This document shows positions 14,246 through 44,944 of a DNA stretch of 64,000 nucleotides, piece after piece (within the stretch, counting starts at the first letter, position 1; the number at the start of each line of letters is the position of its first letter). Below the pieces are notes generated by a model. That model was not told the DNA's origin, searched no databases, and saw only the letters and a program-made list of their open reading frames with translations. Location: assembly GCA_030686115.1 (NCBI GenBank), contig CP131612.1, positions 2,480,001-2,544,000 on the forward strand, in the 5' to 3' direction. The translations under genes were made by a program, and so were the position numbers. This DNA is from Psychrobacter cibarius (GTDB lineage Bacteria > Pseudomonadota > Gammaproteobacteria > Pseudomonadales > Moraxellaceae).

Positions 14246-14506
14246 TTAAGAACGATGTCCATGAGTATGCTTAGCTTGATACTTGCTTTTTGCTTTGAGA
14301 TGAGCCGCTGGTTTTTTTGATTGATGCTTTGACACTACTGCCTTTTTTTTAACATGCTGATGTTTATTATCAAACTTTGCATTGACCTTTTGATGCTTCA
14401 CTTGAGCAACATGATGCTTAGCAATTTGCGGCGCAGCACTTGCTTGGCTAACCATTGTGAAGCAAGCAGTAATGGCTAGCATTGAACTTATCATTATTTT
14501 TTTCAT
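14246..14506 (-). CDS. Small secreted His/Lys-rich protein, function unknown
   Basis: 86 aa from the internal ATG at 14506 (MKKIMISSMLAITACFTMVS), which starts a clear Sec signal peptide cleaved after QASA. The longer frame upstream has no signal-like start. The mature 60-odd residues are almost entirely Lys, His, Gln and Ala (VKHQKVNAKF, VKKKAVVSKHQSKKPAAH), strongly basic and with about ten histidines. This could suit metal or nucleic-acid/polyanion binding or acid shock (Asr-like composition), but no family is recognised. Confidence 0.7.
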   Translation of the reverse strand: MKKIMISSMLAITACFTMVSQASAAPQIAKHHVAQVKHQKVNAKFDNKHQHVKKKAVVSKHQSKKPAAHLKAKSKYQAKHTHGHRS

Positions 14507-15046
14507 TATTTTTTCTCGTATAAAGTCATATTGGTTATGAGTTGTGGTTGAAACTGCCTTACTCAATATCAAGTAAAGCATTCACGTGATAAAAAGCATC
14601 ATGATAAAAATTTGCTCTATCGACAACGAGAATGATAAATGATTCAAACGTTAAGTAGATTTATGAAGATTAAAGAAAGGTAACCTTAATGAGGGAAGGT
14701 TTCTTAAGTGGTACGCTATAAGCGTCATATTGGCGCTTTTCTAGACGGGCAAGTAATCGCGAATGAAAAGATATCTTATATATAGATTAGGGTAACTGGC
14801 TTTGGCATATTTTTTATAAAGTGTAGACGTTGTCACGATACTTTCATTTCCACCCTATAAAATGCGTTGATTATTCAAAGCCATTAGCGATATGCCGCAT
14901 CACAATAAAGACTTTTAAAGAGTAAAGACCAAACTAAGCAGGCTAGATAAGTATTTTGCAAGAGTCGTTGGAGTTGGGATTTTTTTAAAGTAGCCACACT
15001 TATGGCGTTCTGAATAGAAATTTTGAAATAACTGAGAATCGATGTA
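14507..15046. other. Intergenic region, no gene seen
   Basis: 540 bp with no convincing coding frame on either strand. It separates the divergent small secreted-protein gene and the hypothetical gene at 15047 and must hold their promoters. An imperfect hairpin around 14670-14704 (AAGAAA...TTTCTT arms with a bulge) was seen but is weak. Confidence 0.4.
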
Positions 15047-15913: not shown

Positions 15914-16504
15914 ATGTCTACTAAGCGCCGTAAGCTTGTTTTACGATATTCATCACCGGTAACGATGTGGTTCGGCATGTTGGTCGCATGTTTTGCTTGG
16001 ATCATGCACATCACGCTGTTGCTCACACCTCTATGGGATGATAATGCCCACTTAGGTCATGGTATCTGTGCAGAGCTTGCACCGATTGTATCGGCAGCTA
16101 AGCAGTATGAGCAAATACAGACTGATATTGCGCAAACGAATCACAACATACCCATTGATAGTGCCGCCCGTCATTTACTTCATCATAATGCATCCTTATC
16201 TTTAGCATCGCCTGCGACCGTTGAGCCAGTTATAACGGTTGACGCCGCACCTTCGCACGAAGCTTTGTATAGCAAAGATAAGGTTGCAAGCTCTGAATCT
16301 AACCCTGATGCCGTAAAATACACTGGCTGTGACCTTTGCACTGCCATGTCTGCGGCACTATTGCCAGTCGCTTTTACACATACTGACTCGGCTTTGATTG
16401 AGCTGTCTACTGTCTCAGTTACGTTTTTGTATCGCTCACATACCTACTCTCCTAGTAATTTTTTACGACCCCTCGCACGCGCTCCTCCCGTCACACTCAC
16501 ATAA
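15914..16504 (+). CDS. DUF2946 family protein (copper-associated)
   Basis: 196 aa. An N-terminal membrane helix (WFGMLVACFAWIMHITLLL) is followed by a long periplasmic His/Ala/Ser-rich stretch, the conserved CDLCTAMSAALLP block near residues 138-150 and a C-terminal FLRPLARAPP motif typical of DUF2946. These proteins repeatedly lie beside OprC/NosA-type TonB receptors and are thought to help copper handling, though their biochemistry is unknown. The CxxC pair plus histidines would suit Cu binding. A MITE separates it from the receptor gene at 16971. Confidence 0.78.
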   Translation: MSTKRRKLVLRYSSPVTMWFGMLVACFAWIMHITLLLTPLWDDNAHLGHGICAELAPIVSAAKQYEQIQTDIAQTNHNIPIDSAARHLLHHNASLSLASPATVEPVITVDAAPSHEALYSKDKVASSESNPDAVKYTGCDLCTAMSAALLPVAFTHTDSALIELSTVSVTFLYRSHTYSPSNFLRPLARAPPVTLT

Positions 16505-16543
16505 CTATCTACATAACTATCTACATTTATAGTCCAATATTTT

Positions 16544-16717
16544 TAGGGCGTGTCCTCATTTTAAAAATGGTGATAAACATGAGATAAATTGCCGTCAAAC
16601 AAGAAAAGTAGCGCAAATAATATCGAGATATTAATAAGCTATTTGATGATGTTTGGCAAAATTTAGCCATTTTTAGCCCATTTCGAAAGTAATCAATTGA
16701 ATTGAGGACACGCCCTA
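16544..16717. mobile_element. MITE, family 1, copy A (174 bp)
   Basis: Perfect 15 bp inverted repeats TAGGGCGTGTCCTCA (16544-16558) and its reverse complement (16703-16717), with TA at both outer edges as the likely target duplication. The interior has no functional gene. It shares long stretches with the copy at 26996-27165, including AAAATTTAGCCATTTTTAGC followed by CCATTT. It is non-autonomous; TA duplication would fit an IS630/mariner-like transposase, but none is in the window. Confidence 0.82.
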
Positions 16718-16970
16718 GAGCATTAGTGACAATGCTCTCAATCAACGCGCTCATTTGAGCTCTGATTGAGGCACTTGTATGCGTTTGCCTAAAACATTGC
16801 GCTCAAAACTGTGCTCATAATATTGTGCTCAAAATGCTATCTATTTATATCGGAAAATATTCAGTAAGCACCTAGTCTAAGTCCATAAATGGCTTGGCTG
16901 ACATTACAGCTTGGTAAAAACTGAATAACCGATTTCATAAAATATTTTTGCAAATTTCTAGGAAAGTAAG
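16718..16970. promoter_or_regulatory. Leader region of TonB receptor gene
   Basis: 253 bp between the MITE and the receptor start, AT-rich, with no coding frame. It presumably carries the receptor promoter; no metalloregulator box is recognised by eye. Confidence 0.3.
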
Positions 16971-19274
16971 ATGTTATCTTCATCAATAAACGCTGTACCT
17001 ATTTTAAAACTAAGTGTTTTAGCTTTGTCTTTATTGCATATCAGTAGCGCTTATGCGGATTCCACAACCGTAAAGGCGCACATGCCTACTACTGATGATG
17101 AGCCACATATTCAATTGCCAGAAATCGTCGTTTATGCGACAGCAGCGGATAAGCACTCTAGTACCAATGCACTCGGGACAGCCGCAAACCTTGATCAAAA
17201 ATTTATTAACAGCAAACAAGTGGCAAGCAGTGATACGGCCACTATACTGACAAAAATACCCGGTCTAAATGTCCAAAGTGCCGGTGGTATCTCAAACTTG
17301 CCCGTGATGAGAGGCTTGGCGGACAACCGTCTGCGTATCTTAGTGGATGGCGTTGACTCAATCGCCTCCTGTCCAAACAGTATGAACTCACCCTTGTCTT
17401 ATATTGCGCCAAGCGCTATAGACAAGACCACCGTTTATGCAGGTGTGACGCCTGTGAGTATCGGTGGTAATAGTATTGGCGGCACCATCGTCGTCGAAAC
17501 AGCAGAGCCTATGTTTTCAACGGATAGCGACATACTAACTTCAGGTGAAATTGGCACATTTTATCGTAGTAATGGTGACGCTTATGGTGCCAATTTATCT
17601 ACCACAGCAGCAAACGAGCAGCTTAGCCTCACCTATAAAGGCAGCTTTGCGCAGGCGGATAATTATAAAGCTGGTGGTGATTTTAAATCTTATACAGAGA
17701 CAGGGAACGCTGGTAAAACCTTAGCGAAAGACGAAGTTGGTTCAACCGCCTATGAAAGCAAAAACCAGTCAGTAGATGTGGCTTATAAGAACGGCAATCA
17801 TCTGCTACAAGGCACTTATTTGTGGCAAAACATCCCAAAAGAGTTATATCCAAATCAACGGATGGACATGCTTGACAATCAGCTTGACCGCATTAATTTG
17901 CGCTACAAAAGCGAGTTAAATTGGGGACAGTTAGAAGCACAGGCCTATCATGAAGATGTCGATCACTATATGAACTTTGGGGAAGACAAACAGTTCGTGT
18001 ACGGTAATGCCAAAGGTATGCCGATGTACACCAGTAGCGAGACCATCGGTGCCAATCTTAAAGGTATTATTGATTTAACCAACCAAAGCACGCTCAATAT
18101 AGGTGCTGAATATCAAGACTACACGCTCGATGACACGTGGGCGGCATCTGGCGACGGTATGATGTCGCCAAACGACTTTCAAAATATCAACAATGGTCAG
18201 CGTCAGCGTATCGGTATCTATGGCGAATGGGAAAAAGATATCTCATCTGACTGGAGCACCCAGCTTGGCGCTCGCTATGAAAACGTACGTACCAGTGCTG
18301 ATGAAGTACATGGCTATCAAATCGATGGTCAAAACAATATGACCAATCAGGTGCGAGATAGCGCTAACTTTAATGCCAGTGACCGCCGAACCACTGATAA
18401 CAACTTTGATATTACTGCACTCGCACGCTACGACATTGATTCACAAAAAAATCTAGCCTTAGGTCTATCGCACAAAGAACGCACGCCAAGCTTATATGAA
18501 CGCTATACCTGGTCCACTTGGAAAATGGCGGCCATCATGAATAATACCGTTGGTGACGGTAATGGCTATTTTGGTGATCCTAATCTACGCCCAGAAAAAT
18601 CCAACACCCTATCTGCCACCTTAGACTGGCGCGGTGCTGATGATAGCTGGGGCGTTAAAGCCACTCCTTACTATTCAAACATTGACGACTATGTCGATGC
18701 CGTACAGTGGAACCCCATGGCAAACACAGCAGCTAGCACTCAAACAGCTAATCAATATAATGTGCTGCGCTATACCAACCAAGATGCTGAGATATATGGC
18801 ATAGATATCTCAGCCAATCGGGAGCTGGCAGCAAATGCTTGGGGATACTGGAATATAGTAGGCTCCTTAAGCTATACCAAAGGGGAAAATAAAGACAGCG
18901 GCTCAGACTTATATAACATCATGCCATTCAATGGCAGTGTTGCCCTGAATCGGGAAAATAACGGTTGGACAAACCAAATCGAAGTGGTGGGCGTCTCGGC
19001 TAAAAATGATATCTCAACCCCTCGTAACGAAATTAAAACGGCGGGTTATGGTCTCTTAAATCTCAGTACAGGCTATCAGTTTAAAGAGGTAGCGATTGAG
19101 GCTGGTATCGATAACGTATTCGATAAAAACTATGCCCTACCTCTAGGGGGCGCATACATGGGTCAAGGCAAAACCATGTCGATGAATGGCGAAATAGGTA
19201 GCGGTTCTAATTGGGGTACTGCCGTTCCTGGCGCGGGACGATCATTGTATGTGGGTGTCAACTATAAGTTTTAG
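16971..19274 (+). CDS. TonB-dependent receptor, OprC/NosA-like copper receptor
   Basis: 767 aa. A signal peptide ends near HISSAYA; the TonB box is probably EIVVYAT (near 51-57). A plug domain follows (SDTATILTKIPGLNVQSAGG, PVMRGLADNRLRILVDG), and a 22-strand barrel ends with the aromatic VGVNYKF. The plug segment SCPNSMNSPLSYI is typical of OprC/NosA copper receptors, where Cys and Met residues bind copper. It lies between a DUF2946 gene and a TauE/SafE gene with a Met/His tail, which supports copper import across the outer membrane. Metal specificity is inferred. Confidence 0.88.
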   Translation: MLSSSINAVPILKLSVLALSLLHISSAYADSTTVKAHMPTTDDEPHIQLPEIVVYATAADKHSSTNALGTAANLDQKFINSKQVASSDTATILTKIPGLNVQSAGGISNLPVMRGLADNRLRILVDGVDSIASCPNSMNSPLSYIAPSAIDKTTVYAGVTPVSIGGNSIGGTIVVETAEPMFSTDSDILTSGEIGTFYRSNGDAYGANLSTTAANEQLSLTYKGSFAQADNYKAGGDFKSYTETGNAGKTLAKDEVGSTAYESKNQSVDVAYKNGNHLLQGTYLWQNIPKELYPNQRMDMLDNQLDRINLRYKSELNWGQLEAQAYHEDVDHYMNFGEDKQFVYGNAKGMPMYTSSETIGANLKGIIDLTNQSTLNIGAEYQDYTLDDTWAASGDGMMSPNDFQNINNGQRQRIGIYGEWEKDISSDWSTQLGARYENVRTSADEVHGYQIDGQNNMTNQVRDSANFNASDRRTTDNNFDITALARYDIDSQKNLALGLSHKERTPSLYERYTWSTWKMAAIMNNTVGDGNGYFGDPNLRPEKSNTLSATLDWRGADDSWGVKATPYYSNIDDYVDAVQWNPMANTAASTQTANQYNVLRYTNQDAEIYGIDISANRELAANAWGYWNIVGSLSYTKGENKDSGSDLYNIMPFNGSVALNRENNGWTNQIEVVGVSAKNDISTPRNEIKTAGYGLLNLSTGYQFKEVAIEAGIDNVFDKNYALPLGGAYMGQGKTMSMNGEIGSGSNWGTAVPGAGRSLYVGVNYKF

Positions 19275-19362: not shown

Positions 19363-20265
19363 ATGACTATGGCACTATTAATTGCAGCATTTTTAATGGG
19401 ATTTTTTGGTTCGCCGCATTGCTTAGGTATGTGTGGCGGTATCGTCACCGCATTTGGGCTATCGATGAAAGAAACCAGTCCAGCAAAAAAACGCGGTCTC
19501 ATTGCGACTTACCATTTGGGGCGCTTACTCAGTTATGCCCTATTGGGCTTAATTGCTGGAGTGATTGGCACCACGGTATTAACCCCTCTGATGGTTGGCA
19601 ATAGCACACCTCGCATTCTACTAGGGTTGGTCTTGGTATTTGTAGGATTAACCATGCTAGGGTTGCCTTTTTTAAACAGGCTTGAACGTCTTGGTATGCA
19701 TGTTTGGCAAGCTTTATCACCTCTGCGGCAGAAAGTATTCCCCTTAAACACCTTTCCTCGAGCATTAACAGCAGGTTTATTATGGGGATTTTTACCCTGT
19801 GGTCTCGTTTATGGCGCATTACTTATTGCGGTCGTCGGTCATGACCCGCTCACAGGTGCCGTGTTAATGTTTGTCTTTGGTCTAGGAACCGTACCCATGC
19901 TCGTCGCCACGCACGAAACGGTCAACTGGATGCGCAATCAAATTGGGCGTTTGCGCCTAAGGCAAGTGAATGGCGCAATCATGATGCTATCTGGCTTAGC
20001 CGTCATAGCGGTGCCGATGGTCATGGCCAATATGCATGGTGGACACGGGCAAATGAACCATGAGCAAATGAACCATGAGCAAATGAATCACGAGCAAATG
20101 AATCACGAGCAAATGAATCACGAGCAAATGAATCACGAGCAAATGAATCACGAGCAAATGAATCACGAGCAAATGAATCACGAGCAAATGAATCACGAGC
20201 AAATGAATCACGAGCAAATGAATCACGAGCAAATGAATCACGAGCAAATGAATCACGAGCAATAA
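19363..20265 (+). CDS. TauE/SafE (CcoH/heavy-metal type) membrane protein with Met-His repeat tail
   Basis: 300 aa. The membrane domain (residues ~1-225) begins MALLIAAFLMGFFGSPHC with LGMCGGIVTAFG, the HCxGMCGG signature of the 'urease accessory/sulfite exporter' subgroup tied to copper delivery to oxidases. GLLWGFLPCGLVYGALL is the second conserved block. The tail is GGHGQ followed by exactly 14 QMNHE pentamers and a final Gln, encoded by 15 bp tandem repeats at 20050-20259. Met and His are classic Cu(I)/Cu(II) ligands, so this tail is probably a copper-binding domain. It follows the OprC-like receptor by 88 bp and is closed by a terminator. Confidence 0.85.
   Translation: MTMALLIAAFLMGFFGSPHCLGMCGGIVTAFGLSMKETSPAKKRGLIATYHLGRLLSYALLGLIAGVIGTTVLTPLMVGNSTPRILLGLVLVFVGLTMLGLPFLNRLERLGMHVWQALSPLRQKVFPLNTFPRALTAGLLWGFLPCGLVYGALLIAVVGHDPLTGAVLMFVFGLGTVPMLVATHETVNWMRNQIGRLRLRQVNGAIMMLSGLAVIAVPMVMANMHGGHGQMNHEQMNHEQMNHEQMNHEQMNHEQMNHEQMNHEQMNHEQMNHEQMNHEQMNHEQMNHEQMNHEQMNHEQ
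20050..20259 (+). repeat. 15 bp tandem repeat, 14 copies, in frame
   Basis: Fourteen head-to-tail copies of 15 bp encode QMNHE. The first two read CAAATGAACCATGAG; the other twelve are identical CAAATGAATCACGAG. The near-perfect identity points to recent expansion by slippage or unequal exchange. Copy-number change would alter tail length without breaking the frame. Confidence 0.98.
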
Positions 20266-20312
20266 AAACGTCTCTCATGTACATAGGAGGCAATGATACG
20301 TTTAAATCATAG

Positions 20313-20344
20313 ATAGGGCATTTTTAGCGTGCCCTATTTTTTTA
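20313..20344 (+). terminator. Rho-independent terminator after TauE/SafE gene
   Basis: ATAGGGCA pairs with TGCCCTAT around a 9 nt loop and is followed by a seven-T run. The T run overlaps the stop codon of the convergent response-regulator gene. Confidence 0.85.
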
Positions 20345-24778: not shown

Positions 24779-24819
24779 TTGCATAGAATTTATTGCGGTT
24801 AGCAACCATCATAAATAGT

Positions 24820-24863
24820 CAGCCATTAGCCAGCCATTAGCCAGCCATTAGCCAGCCATTAGC
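24820..24863 (+). repeat. 11 bp tandem repeat, 4 copies
   Basis: Four exact copies of CAGCCATTAGC, 41 bp downstream of the lipoprotein stop codon, in untranslated DNA. Looks like a small slippage repeat; no function is evident. Confidence 0.95.
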
Positions 24864-25016
24864 CAATGGATAACGCATAATTTGGCAAATAAGTACTTAT
24901 ATTACTTTCAACCGATGTCATTTTTGTTTAATAAAAACACCCTATAGTCTGTCTATAAACCCTTCATTTTAGTCAAATAACCTTTTATATCAGTCTTACT
25001 AAATAAGGATGAACCT

Positions 25017-43879: not shown

Positions 43880-44944
43880 ATGACTGTCAGTACCTACAAT
43901 CCAGCCGACCATGCGACCAACCAAAACGCTCATGTGCACAGTGGTAATCATCACAGCCATGATAATGACAATCACAGTCACAGTCACAGTCACAGTCATG
44001 CCGATCACACCTCTACTGGTCGCGGTGATGATATTCTTAGAGTAATGCCAACCTTGTCTGATTTGCAAAAACCGCATTCTGACCAAGAGTTCATCGAAAA
44101 AGCGATGGCGGAAGAGCGCAGCAACCATAAAAACCTGATTGCCTCTAGCCGTGATGAGCTGCCTTCAGTGACGGTCAATGGGGTGATGATAGATAGAACC
44201 AATATCGCTCAAGAGCTGCAATATCATCCAGCAGAAAACAAAGAAGACGCCGTCTTTTTAGCGACACAAGCGCTGGTCGTGCGCGAATTACTGAGATTGG
44301 CAGTTTTAGATGAGCCAAGCCTTGGTGAAGCGGCATGGGAAAACGACGAAGAGCAAGCCATTTCTACTTTAATAGACAAAAACGTTCAAGCAACGATGCC
44401 AGATATGGCAACTTGTGAGCGCTATTATAAGCAGAATATGACTGACTTTAAGACTGATCCCATTATGACCGTACGCCATATTTTATTGGCATGCCCGCCT
44501 GAAGATGGCGATGAGCGCCTAAAGCTCAAAAAGACCGCGTACGAGTTTATCGAGCAAATCAAAAATAACGCCAATCCTGATGCCGAGTTTATCCAGTTAG
44601 CACGCCAACATTCGGCTTGCCCTTCAAAAGAGCAAGGTGGCAAACTGGGTGTGATTAGCAAAGGTCAAACCGTACCAGAATTTGAAGGTGTATTATTTAA
44701 GCTCGATAAAGGACTTGCGCCAAGCCCTATCGAAAGCCGTTACGGTTTTCACATCGTTGAGGTGCTCAATAAAGAACTTGGGATACAGATGACTTATGAG
44801 CAAGTCAGTCCTGCAATCCATAATAAATTGAGCCAACAAGCCTTTCACCAATCATTATGCGATTACTTGTTTACCTTAGCGCATGAGGCTGATATCCAAG
44901 GTATCGAGATGACGCTTGAGCAAGAGAATATATTCCGCGGCTAA
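43880..44944 (+). CDS. PpiC-type (parvulin) peptidyl-prolyl isomerase with His-rich N-terminus
   Basis: 354 aa. An N-terminal tail of about 45 residues contains a metal-binding-like run (HVHSGNHHSHDNDNHSHSHS), partly made by four CACAGT repeats at 43973-43996. Then comes a NifM-like helical region and a parvulin domain near residues 195-290 (DPIMTVRHILLACPP, GGKLGVISKGQTVPEFEGVL, ESRYGFHIVEVL). A PpiC gene also follows narGHJI in Pseudomonas, where it is thought to help fold or mature the reductase. No signal peptide, so probably cytoplasmic. Confidence 0.9.
   Translation: MTVSTYNPADHATNQNAHVHSGNHHSHDNDNHSHSHSHSHADHTSTGRGDDILRVMPTLSDLQKPHSDQEFIEKAMAEERSNHKNLIASSRDELPSVTVNGVMIDRTNIAQELQYHPAENKEDAVFLATQALVVRELLRLAVLDEPSLGEAAWENDEEQAISTLIDKNVQATMPDMATCERYYKQNMTDFKTDPIMTVRHILLACPPEDGDERLKLKKTAYEFIEQIKNNANPDAEFIQLARQHSACPSKEQGGKLGVISKGQTVPEFEGVLFKLDKGLAPSPIESRYGFHIVEVLNKELGIQMTYEQVSPAIHNKLSQQAFHQSLCDYLFTLAHEADIQGIEMTLEQENIFRG

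Follow-up and report, generated by a model that had tools for sequence, protein, structure and literature searches.

What a C-terminal tail made of 14 copies of the same five residues, QMNHE, does on a bacterial membrane protein, and how stable the number of copies is among relatives, are the questions raised by a gene of Psychrobacter cibarius located at positions 19363..20265 on the + strand of the window, i.e., the whole stretch of 64,000 nucleotides analysed here. The explanation that we favour, and to which we assign a probability of roughly 0.6, is that the tail would be a periplasmic Met/His copper-capturing extension of a DsbD_2 inner-membrane protein belonging to a copper-starvation operon.

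The Tail Array and the Protein That Carries It

The gene encodes a protein of 300 amino acids with six hydrophobic stretches, in which a membrane domain is followed by the tail NMHGGHG-(QMNHE)14-Q. The array (20050..20259, + strand), delimited by direct reading, a repeat finder and unit coding, consists of 14 tandem 15-bp units running in frame from the CAA codon at 20050 to position 20259, after which come a further CAA and the stop codon TAA (20263-20265). Tandem Repeats Finder reported it at 20044-20262 with a period of 15, 14.6 copies, 98% matches and a score of 403, while the runner-up among its five rows in the window scored 93. Unit coding gave the order AABBBBBBBBBBBB, with two A units (CAAATGAACCATGAG) and 12 identical B units (CAAATGAATCACGAG); both this coding and direct reading confirmed the 14 pentamers, 12 of them identical in DNA, described in the initial annotation. 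The longest run of period-15 identity extends over 171 bases in the tail gene versus 10 elsewhere (positions 1-20040 and 20271-64000), which rules out an array arisen by chance. Residues 225-300 include 14 Met, 16 His and 14 Glu but lack Cys, Lys and Arg. The closest named loci come from isolates designated P. immobilis, P. cibarius and P. glacincola.

A Pfam search assigned the protein to DsbD_2 (PF13386) with 163.8 bits against a gathering score of 24.9 (E 5.9e-48, residues 8-211) and gave DsbD_TM as a weaker second match; at E<=1e-3 these were the only models, and no TauE/SafE model was among them. TauE/SafE, the family named initially, is the product name that relatives bear in databases and was rejected as the family of this protein. 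The name urease accessory protein UreH domain-containing is attached to some homologs. A search of PDB sequences with the membrane core returned no significant relative, its one match being at chance level (E 0.24).

The positive-inside rule predicts a periplasmic tail, since Lys and Arg cluster in the loops between helices 1-2, 3-4 and 5-6 (5, 5 and 4 residues, compared with 0-1 in the other loops) and are absent from the tail. H19, C20, M23, C24 and C146 are invariant in 23 aligned sequences; the motif HCxxMC sits in helix 1 and PCG in helix 4, and HCxGMC together with PCG was found in 120/120 of the best 120 of 2,562 homologs. All of these 120 homologs have Met/His-rich tails, with a Met+His fraction beyond residue 224 of 0.34 (median) and at least 0.20. 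Such a tail is therefore not peculiar to this gene, and a paralog without tandem units has one as well. This paralog (G000:C1:1847810-1848724; L002, L084) carries an irregular Met/His/Asp tail, and similar copies occur in many genomes of the genus.

CruR-like Frame, Receptor and Operon Layout

The gene is preceded on the same strand by an upstream open reading frame of 196 aa (15914..16504, + strand), which is called CruR-like here on the basis of its motifs and a weak match to DUF2946 (PF11162) of 16.3 bits, under the gathering score of 23.7 (E 0.017); at E<=1e-3 this profile had matches in 0 of the 1 genome searched. The motif CDLC (16328-16339) is separated by 46 residues from RAPP (16478-16489), both on the + strand. 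With the window included, the CxxC-RAPP spacing is 46 in 20 of 23 loci and 47 in two, and in the remaining one (L077, a draft) the frame runs off before RAPP. For the CruR family of Bordetella, the passages of PMC9426467 used here give a spacing of 45, with a tolerance of one or two residues.

The 3' end of the CruR-like frame coincides with a C-over-G bubble, a candidate Rho-utilisation region (16435..16512, + strand), which lies in the last codons of the frame. It was detected by scanning C minus G in segments of 78 nt, a size adopted from the same paper (PMC9426467). The segment at 16435 has the highest C minus G of the 64 kb, a value reached by 1 of 63,923 segments on the + strand and by none on the - strand. 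Of 30 further loci scanned, 28 have the corresponding place among the five highest segments of that strand; the exceptions are L227 and L228, where the place does not stand out, since 46 of 7,924 and 40 of 7,424 segments, respectively, reach its value. A gap of 466 nt (16505..16970, + strand) follows before the receptor gene, and the gap in Bordetella is 162 nt (PMC9426467). A C-over-G bubble in the 3' part of the frame and a long gap are both features of CruR-type attenuation. As described in the text consulted for Bordetella, in the absence of copper, ribosomes stall at RAPP and transcription of the operon proceeds, while with copper Rho ends transcription through a C-over-G region that starts in the 3' part of the frame (PMC9426467).

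The next gene (16971..19274, + strand) encodes, as judged by profile and alignment, a TonB-dependent outer-membrane receptor resembling OprC of Pseudomonas aeruginosa, with which it aligns at E 1.2e-27. Residues C134 and M138 of the CxxxM motif (17370-17384) correspond to C143 and M147 of OprC within the significant stretch, and H332 and M334 of the HxM motif (17964-17972) to H323 and M325, the latter motif lying in a stretch with a score of -4.2 bits on its own. CxxxM-HxM constitutes the Cu(I) site of OprC, according to the part of PMC7558416 considered. Against the NCBIfam model of the TonB-dependent copper receptor, TIGR01778, the protein scores 160.7 bits, far under the cut-off of 472.45.

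A scan of the + strand for terminators detected none in the 88-nt gap between the receptor and the tail gene, one terminator-like stem-loop inside the tail gene (19779-19803), and one with a T run behind it (20311..20339, + strand) as a possible, weakly indicated operon end, since four stem-loops were found versus 4.3 expected from shuffles. On the opposite strand from the CruR-like frame, positions 14246-14581 (-) encode a small Lys/His-rich protein whose start looks secreted; it was matched in 9 of 12 receptor-bearing sibling loci and has zero Pfam matches.

Co-Occurrence of the Tandem Tail with the CruR-like Frame

The association with a CruR-like frame was compared in 84 loci. A CruR-like match was found upstream of all 18 tandem-tailed loci (L004-L018, L022, L077 and L083) and of none of the 63 other copies (L002, L019-L021, L023-L076 and L078-L082; L084 duplicates L002), which include some copies with little flanking sequence (394 bases in L073) and two, L071 and L081, with broken ends. 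The copy of the window itself (L001) was fetched too short upstream to be scored in this comparison; its frame is the one at 15914. Genus-wide, 18 of 105 genomes contain the exact two-unit pattern and 30 a CruR-like match, and all of the former are among the latter, related genomes not being independent. No CruR-like or receptor match was found beside the paralog G000:C1:1847810-1848724.

Three layouts were distinguished. In the first, as in the window, the CruR-like frame is followed by the receptor and the DsbD_2 gene. The second (L013-L016, L018 and L022) comprises the CruR-like frame, the DsbD_2 gene and a PepSY_TM gene with no receptor match; PepSY_TM was identified by Pfam in 3/3 loci tested (L013, L014 and L018), together with a weak cytochrome b561 match. 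The third, found in 6 of 12 further loci (L223, L224, L225, L227, L228 and L233), has the CruR-like frame and the receptor without DsbD_2 in the fetched stretch. L226 and L234 are cut off before this can be judged, the receptor is broken in L229, which contains a DsbD_2 fragment, and other frames intervene in L230. Because CruR-receptor loci without DsbD_2 exist, the DsbD_2 gene appears to be an optional member, dispensable for the CruR-receptor system. By eye, L230 (G087) shows a CruR-like frame, ExbB/ExbD/TonB-like frames and then the receptor. Genome G006 has a degenerate xMxHE array directly behind the CruR-like frame.

On the tree, which was built without L001, L003, L071, L077, L081 and L083 and in which 33 of 68 inner branches are unresolved, the tandem-tailed rows do not form one clade; three label changes were counted, one of them stemming from L120, whose tail was read out of frame and whose label was assigned by us. 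Real gene loss in L077 and L083/L120 was considered and rejected: several neighbouring genes are split as well, so that sequencing error is likelier.

Copy-Number Variation and Selection on the Units

In the 15 loci of the first layout, the array has 14 (window), 14, 16, 9, 4, 8, 14, 3, 12, 7, 15, 17, 11, 10 and 12 units, and in seven loci with the DsbD_2 gene directly behind the CruR-like frame, 3, 2, 5, 5, 6, 4 and 7, with HMDHG-like or HMNHE units, numbering 1 to 8, ahead of them there; these counts cover 22 of 23 sources, L017 having another unit type, and include units with one changed residue. Copy number differs in 101 of the 105 pairs of the 15 sister loci (range 3-17). These loci come from species-representative genomes, one per species, and among them the variation agrees with the proposal in the initial annotation that a unit divisible by three lets the tail change in length without frameshift; constant copy number, which it had named as evidence to the contrary, was not observed there.

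The variation is seen even on near-identical cores. L012 and L120 are identical in all 680 aligned core bases and have 7 versus 12 units, L120 being without 7 of the 687 core bases and coming from a genome with many broken frames; for L009 and L117, core identity is 99.85% and the counts are 14 versus 11. In the same genomes, the paralog with the non-tandem Met/His tail has 300 residues in 8 of 9 cases and 276 in one. Since copies vary on identical cores while the non-tandem paralog keeps 300 residues, the array appears to be the fast-changing part. Assembly collapse was rejected as the sole cause of the differences, because differences persist among the five loci whose contigs span 3.0-3.5 Mb (G000, G028, G049, G051 and G075), which have 14, 17, 11, 10 and 12 units; genomes in shorter contigs could hold collapsed arrays. 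G075 is the same record as L083, and since many frames are broken around this locus, its 12 units, and hence the pair of 7 versus 12, are less sure.

Like units are adjacent in 125 of 176 cases versus 81 on average in shuffles (p 1e-4), a pattern of runs that slippage or unequal exchange would leave. Among single changes between units, 4/4 of the possible synonymous ones were seen versus 5/41 of the non-synonymous (p 0.0008), and for transitions alone 4/4 versus 2/11 (p 0.011); the units are not independent, and these p values are indicative. Met is lost in 2 of 198 units and His in 1 of 198. The residues of the array thus seem to be under purifying selection. The tandem form is built from at least three different units, namely QMNHE, HMDHG and, in L017, GMNHE/EMNHE. 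Psychrobacter sp. FME6 (G066) has three copies with tandem tails in its genome, and in L016 and L115, both from this isolate, HMDHG has expanded as a further tandem pentamer ahead of the QMNHE array within the same tail.

Bacterial in-frame variable repeats have units that are multiples of three and change rapidly in copy number. The QMNHE array shares both traits with them and differs in forming a metal-type tail of a membrane protein rather than a surface antigen. The broad range, down to 2 or 3 units, speaks for little effect of length, while the maintained purity speaks for an effect of the residues themselves, as far as the sequences indicate; the earlier description of the tail as 'tunable', in the sense of length affecting function, is not supported as written. 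It is possible, though not probable, that tail length and even the tandem form have no effect, some Met/His content being all that is needed, and that the array arose as a side effect of a start prone to slippage. The tolerance of 2 to 17 units and the relatives with Met/His-rich tails without repeats are in line with this. However, only CruR-linked copies have the tandem form among the loci compared, this form has been extended with at least three different units, and its residues appear to be under purifying selection, although length alone may still be neutral. Such neutrality would concern length only and is compatible with copper capture by the tail. The converse proposal, that slippage, while sparing the frame, yields cells differing in how many copper sites their starvation transporter bears and so provides a length dial for copper acquisition on which copper supply acts as the selecting force, i.e., a graded and reversible phase variation in metal uptake, we consider doubtful.

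Metal Expected to Be Bound by the Array

MxHxx arrays, defined as four or more units followed by Met, were found in 8 of 369 genomes of the class, the genome of the window included. Of the seven others, Pfam classed four, namely one CusB carrying CusF domains, one CopB, one multicopper oxidase and one protein that matches the multicopper-oxidase family weakly, families which we take to be of resistance or efflux; they share the MxHxx pentamers with the tail, but none of the four is DsbD_2. The arrays in G170 and G452 do not look like real Met/His proteins (a 92-residue low-complexity frame and no open frame, respectively), and that in G242 runs into unread bases and was left unclassed. In the genome of the window, the four-unit pattern occurs solely in the tail array; the two-unit pattern M.H..M.H is present once at each of four other places.

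Within each QMNHE unit the spacing is M-N-H, and between neighbouring units it is H-E-Q-M. HX2M and MX2H peptides bind Ag+, HX2M being the spacing demonstrated for peptides of SilE (PMC10080550, as far as used here), and SilE is described in the part of PMC5008109 consulted as a disordered His/Met periplasmic metal sponge for silver. The array resembles SilE in being a His/Met peptide with the HX2M spacing, here between units; unlike SilE, a free periplasmic resistance protein, it would be a membrane-tethered tail in an operon of the starvation type and consists of exact tandem units of varying number. Because MxHxx arrays occur in copper-protein families and HEQM has the Ag+-binding spacing of SilE, copper(I) would be the likeliest ligand of the tail.

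Proposed Role of the Tail Protein

A copper role, already suggested in the initial annotation, appears well supported by the context of the CruR-like frame, the bubble, the receptor and the MxHxx arrays. Most likely, the tail would capture periplasmic copper during starvation rather than for tolerance; starvation and not excess is suggested by the CruR-type control, the uptake-type receptor and the PepSY_TM partner in the sister lineage. Under copper scarcity, ribosomes would stall on the CruR-like frame and transcription would continue, so that the receptor and the DsbD_2 protein are made. The OprC-like receptor would carry copper into the periplasm, where the QMNHE array, through its many weak sites, may hold Cu(I) close to the membrane. 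The membrane domain, with HCxxMC and PCG, could then take over the copper and move either copper, or electrons to reduce it, across the membrane; we infer this direction of transport. With plentiful copper, the CruR-like frame would be read to its end and Rho would stop transcription. Array length would meanwhile drift, being quickly reset by slippage or unequal exchange in 15-bp steps with the frame kept, while selection would retain Met and His.

Several points stand against this explanation. The CruR-like frame is under the DUF2946 cut-off and the receptor far under that of TIGR01778. The HxM stretch of the receptor has a negative score of its own, the bubble does not stand out in L227 and L228, and some CruR-receptor loci are without DsbD_2. 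Several species seem to manage with two to four units, a Met/His tail occurs in the irregular paralog although it has no CruR-like frame, and CutF, of the same broad family as CruR, works in the opposite way. RAPP, the C-over-G bubble and the receptor would favour the CruR type over the CutF type, the direction of control being predicted.

Electron delivery is an unlikely alternative: the membrane part would pass electrons outward like DsbD/CcdA, and the tail would hold Cu(II)/Cu(I) for reduction at the membrane or, as a variant, a periplasmic copper carrier would be reduced, with the PepSY_TM partner of the second lineage performing a related reduction. Consistent with this are the DsbD_2 family with its DsbD_TM match, the invariant C20, C24 and C146, the HCxGMC and PCG motifs in the best 120 of 2,562 homologs, and the PepSY_TM neighbours with their weak cytochrome b561 match, a PepSY_TM member being described as a siderophore reductase in the text consulted of PMC9426467. 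However, with its His and Met, HCxxMC in our reading resembles a copper site as much as a redox pair, and nothing resembling a thioredoxin was noted among the listed frames of the neighbourhood.

Still less probable is a detoxification sponge, in which the tail would bind surplus copper or silver in the periplasm and a longer tail would mean tolerance, as initially expected. The presumed resistance or efflux roles of the other MxHxx arrays would suit it. So would the sponge SilE (PMC5008109), the Ag+-binding peptides (PMC10080550) and the fact that, in the passages available from PMC9973294, CutF-type frames respond oppositely to copper and DUF2946 genes often precede detoxification genes. However, copper switches CruR-type operons off (PMC9426467, as cited above), and the operon has an uptake-type receptor and no efflux pump among the listed frames. 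Copper tolerance is therefore probably the wrong side on which to seek a phenotype; given that a CruR-type operon is off with copper in Bordetella, one would expect a growth phenotype under copper limitation. Service to nickel, cobalt or zinc, which the UreH-like names of some homologs and the His-only CutF-like frames preceding HupE/UreJ genes (PMC9973294, same passages) could suggest, is very improbable in view of the CxxC of the CruR-like frame, the CxxxM/HxM of OprC in the receptor and the Met in every unit, which favours Cu(I)/Ag(I).

Relation to Known Systems

Among described systems, the copper-starvation operon proposed here can be compared with CruR-BfrG-BP2921 of Bordetella pertussis, as presented in the portion of PMC9426467 used. 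The two share a frame with CxxC and RAPP about 45 residues apart, a 3' C-over-G bubble, a long gap and a TonB-dependent receptor; PepSY_TM is the third gene there and occurs in the sister lineage here. They differ in that here a DsbD_2 protein with a tandem tail is encoded by the last gene or directly follows the frame; a word search of the main text of PMC9426467 found no mention of TauE, DsbD or CcdA. In CutF-CutO-CutG of Rhodobacter capsulatus, a DUF2946-type frame likewise heads a copper operon, and CutF is required for copper-dependent production of the next gene (PMC9973294). Unlike the present frame, CutF acts through a stem-loop on the ribosome site of the next gene, across a short gap, and copper raises the output; CutF and CruR are held not to be isofunctional, according to the same passages (PMC9973294). 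With the OprC/NosA copper receptors, the CxxxM and HxM motifs line up, but the score is far below the TIGR01778 cut-off.

DsbD_2, CruR control, OprC-like receptors, MxHxx copper arrays and in-frame variable repeats are all known parts. What is new is their combination, with a DsbD_2 protein of a CruR-type operon bearing a copper-type tail of slippage-variable length. This combination is absent from the literature searched: with the terms used, titles and abstract beginnings in the open-access literature contained no variable Met/His tail on a DsbD_2- or TauE-named protein, and 'MNHEQ' was not found in the open-access literature searched. How bacteria move copper through the inner membrane once a TonB-dependent receptor has taken it up is, to our knowledge, understood only in small part, and a DsbD_2 protein tied to CruR-type operons and bearing a copper-type tail is a concrete candidate for this step. 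Moreover, 3 to 17 repeats on near-identical cores form a natural series suited to asking if uptake capacity depends on how many weak metal sites are present.

Other Repeats in the Window

An intergenic 11-bp repeat, TAGCCAGCCAT, of about 4.5 copies is located at 24816-24865, before an oleate hydratase gene; of seven sibling loci, four have one exact unit and three have none. A second in-frame repeat making a metal-type peptide is found in a gene at 43880-44944 (+), which lies beside the gene of the nitrate reductase gamma subunit and encodes a PpiC-type peptidyl-prolyl isomerase with a His-rich N-terminus, where a 6-bp tandem repeat (43968-43998) codes for HSHSHSHS.
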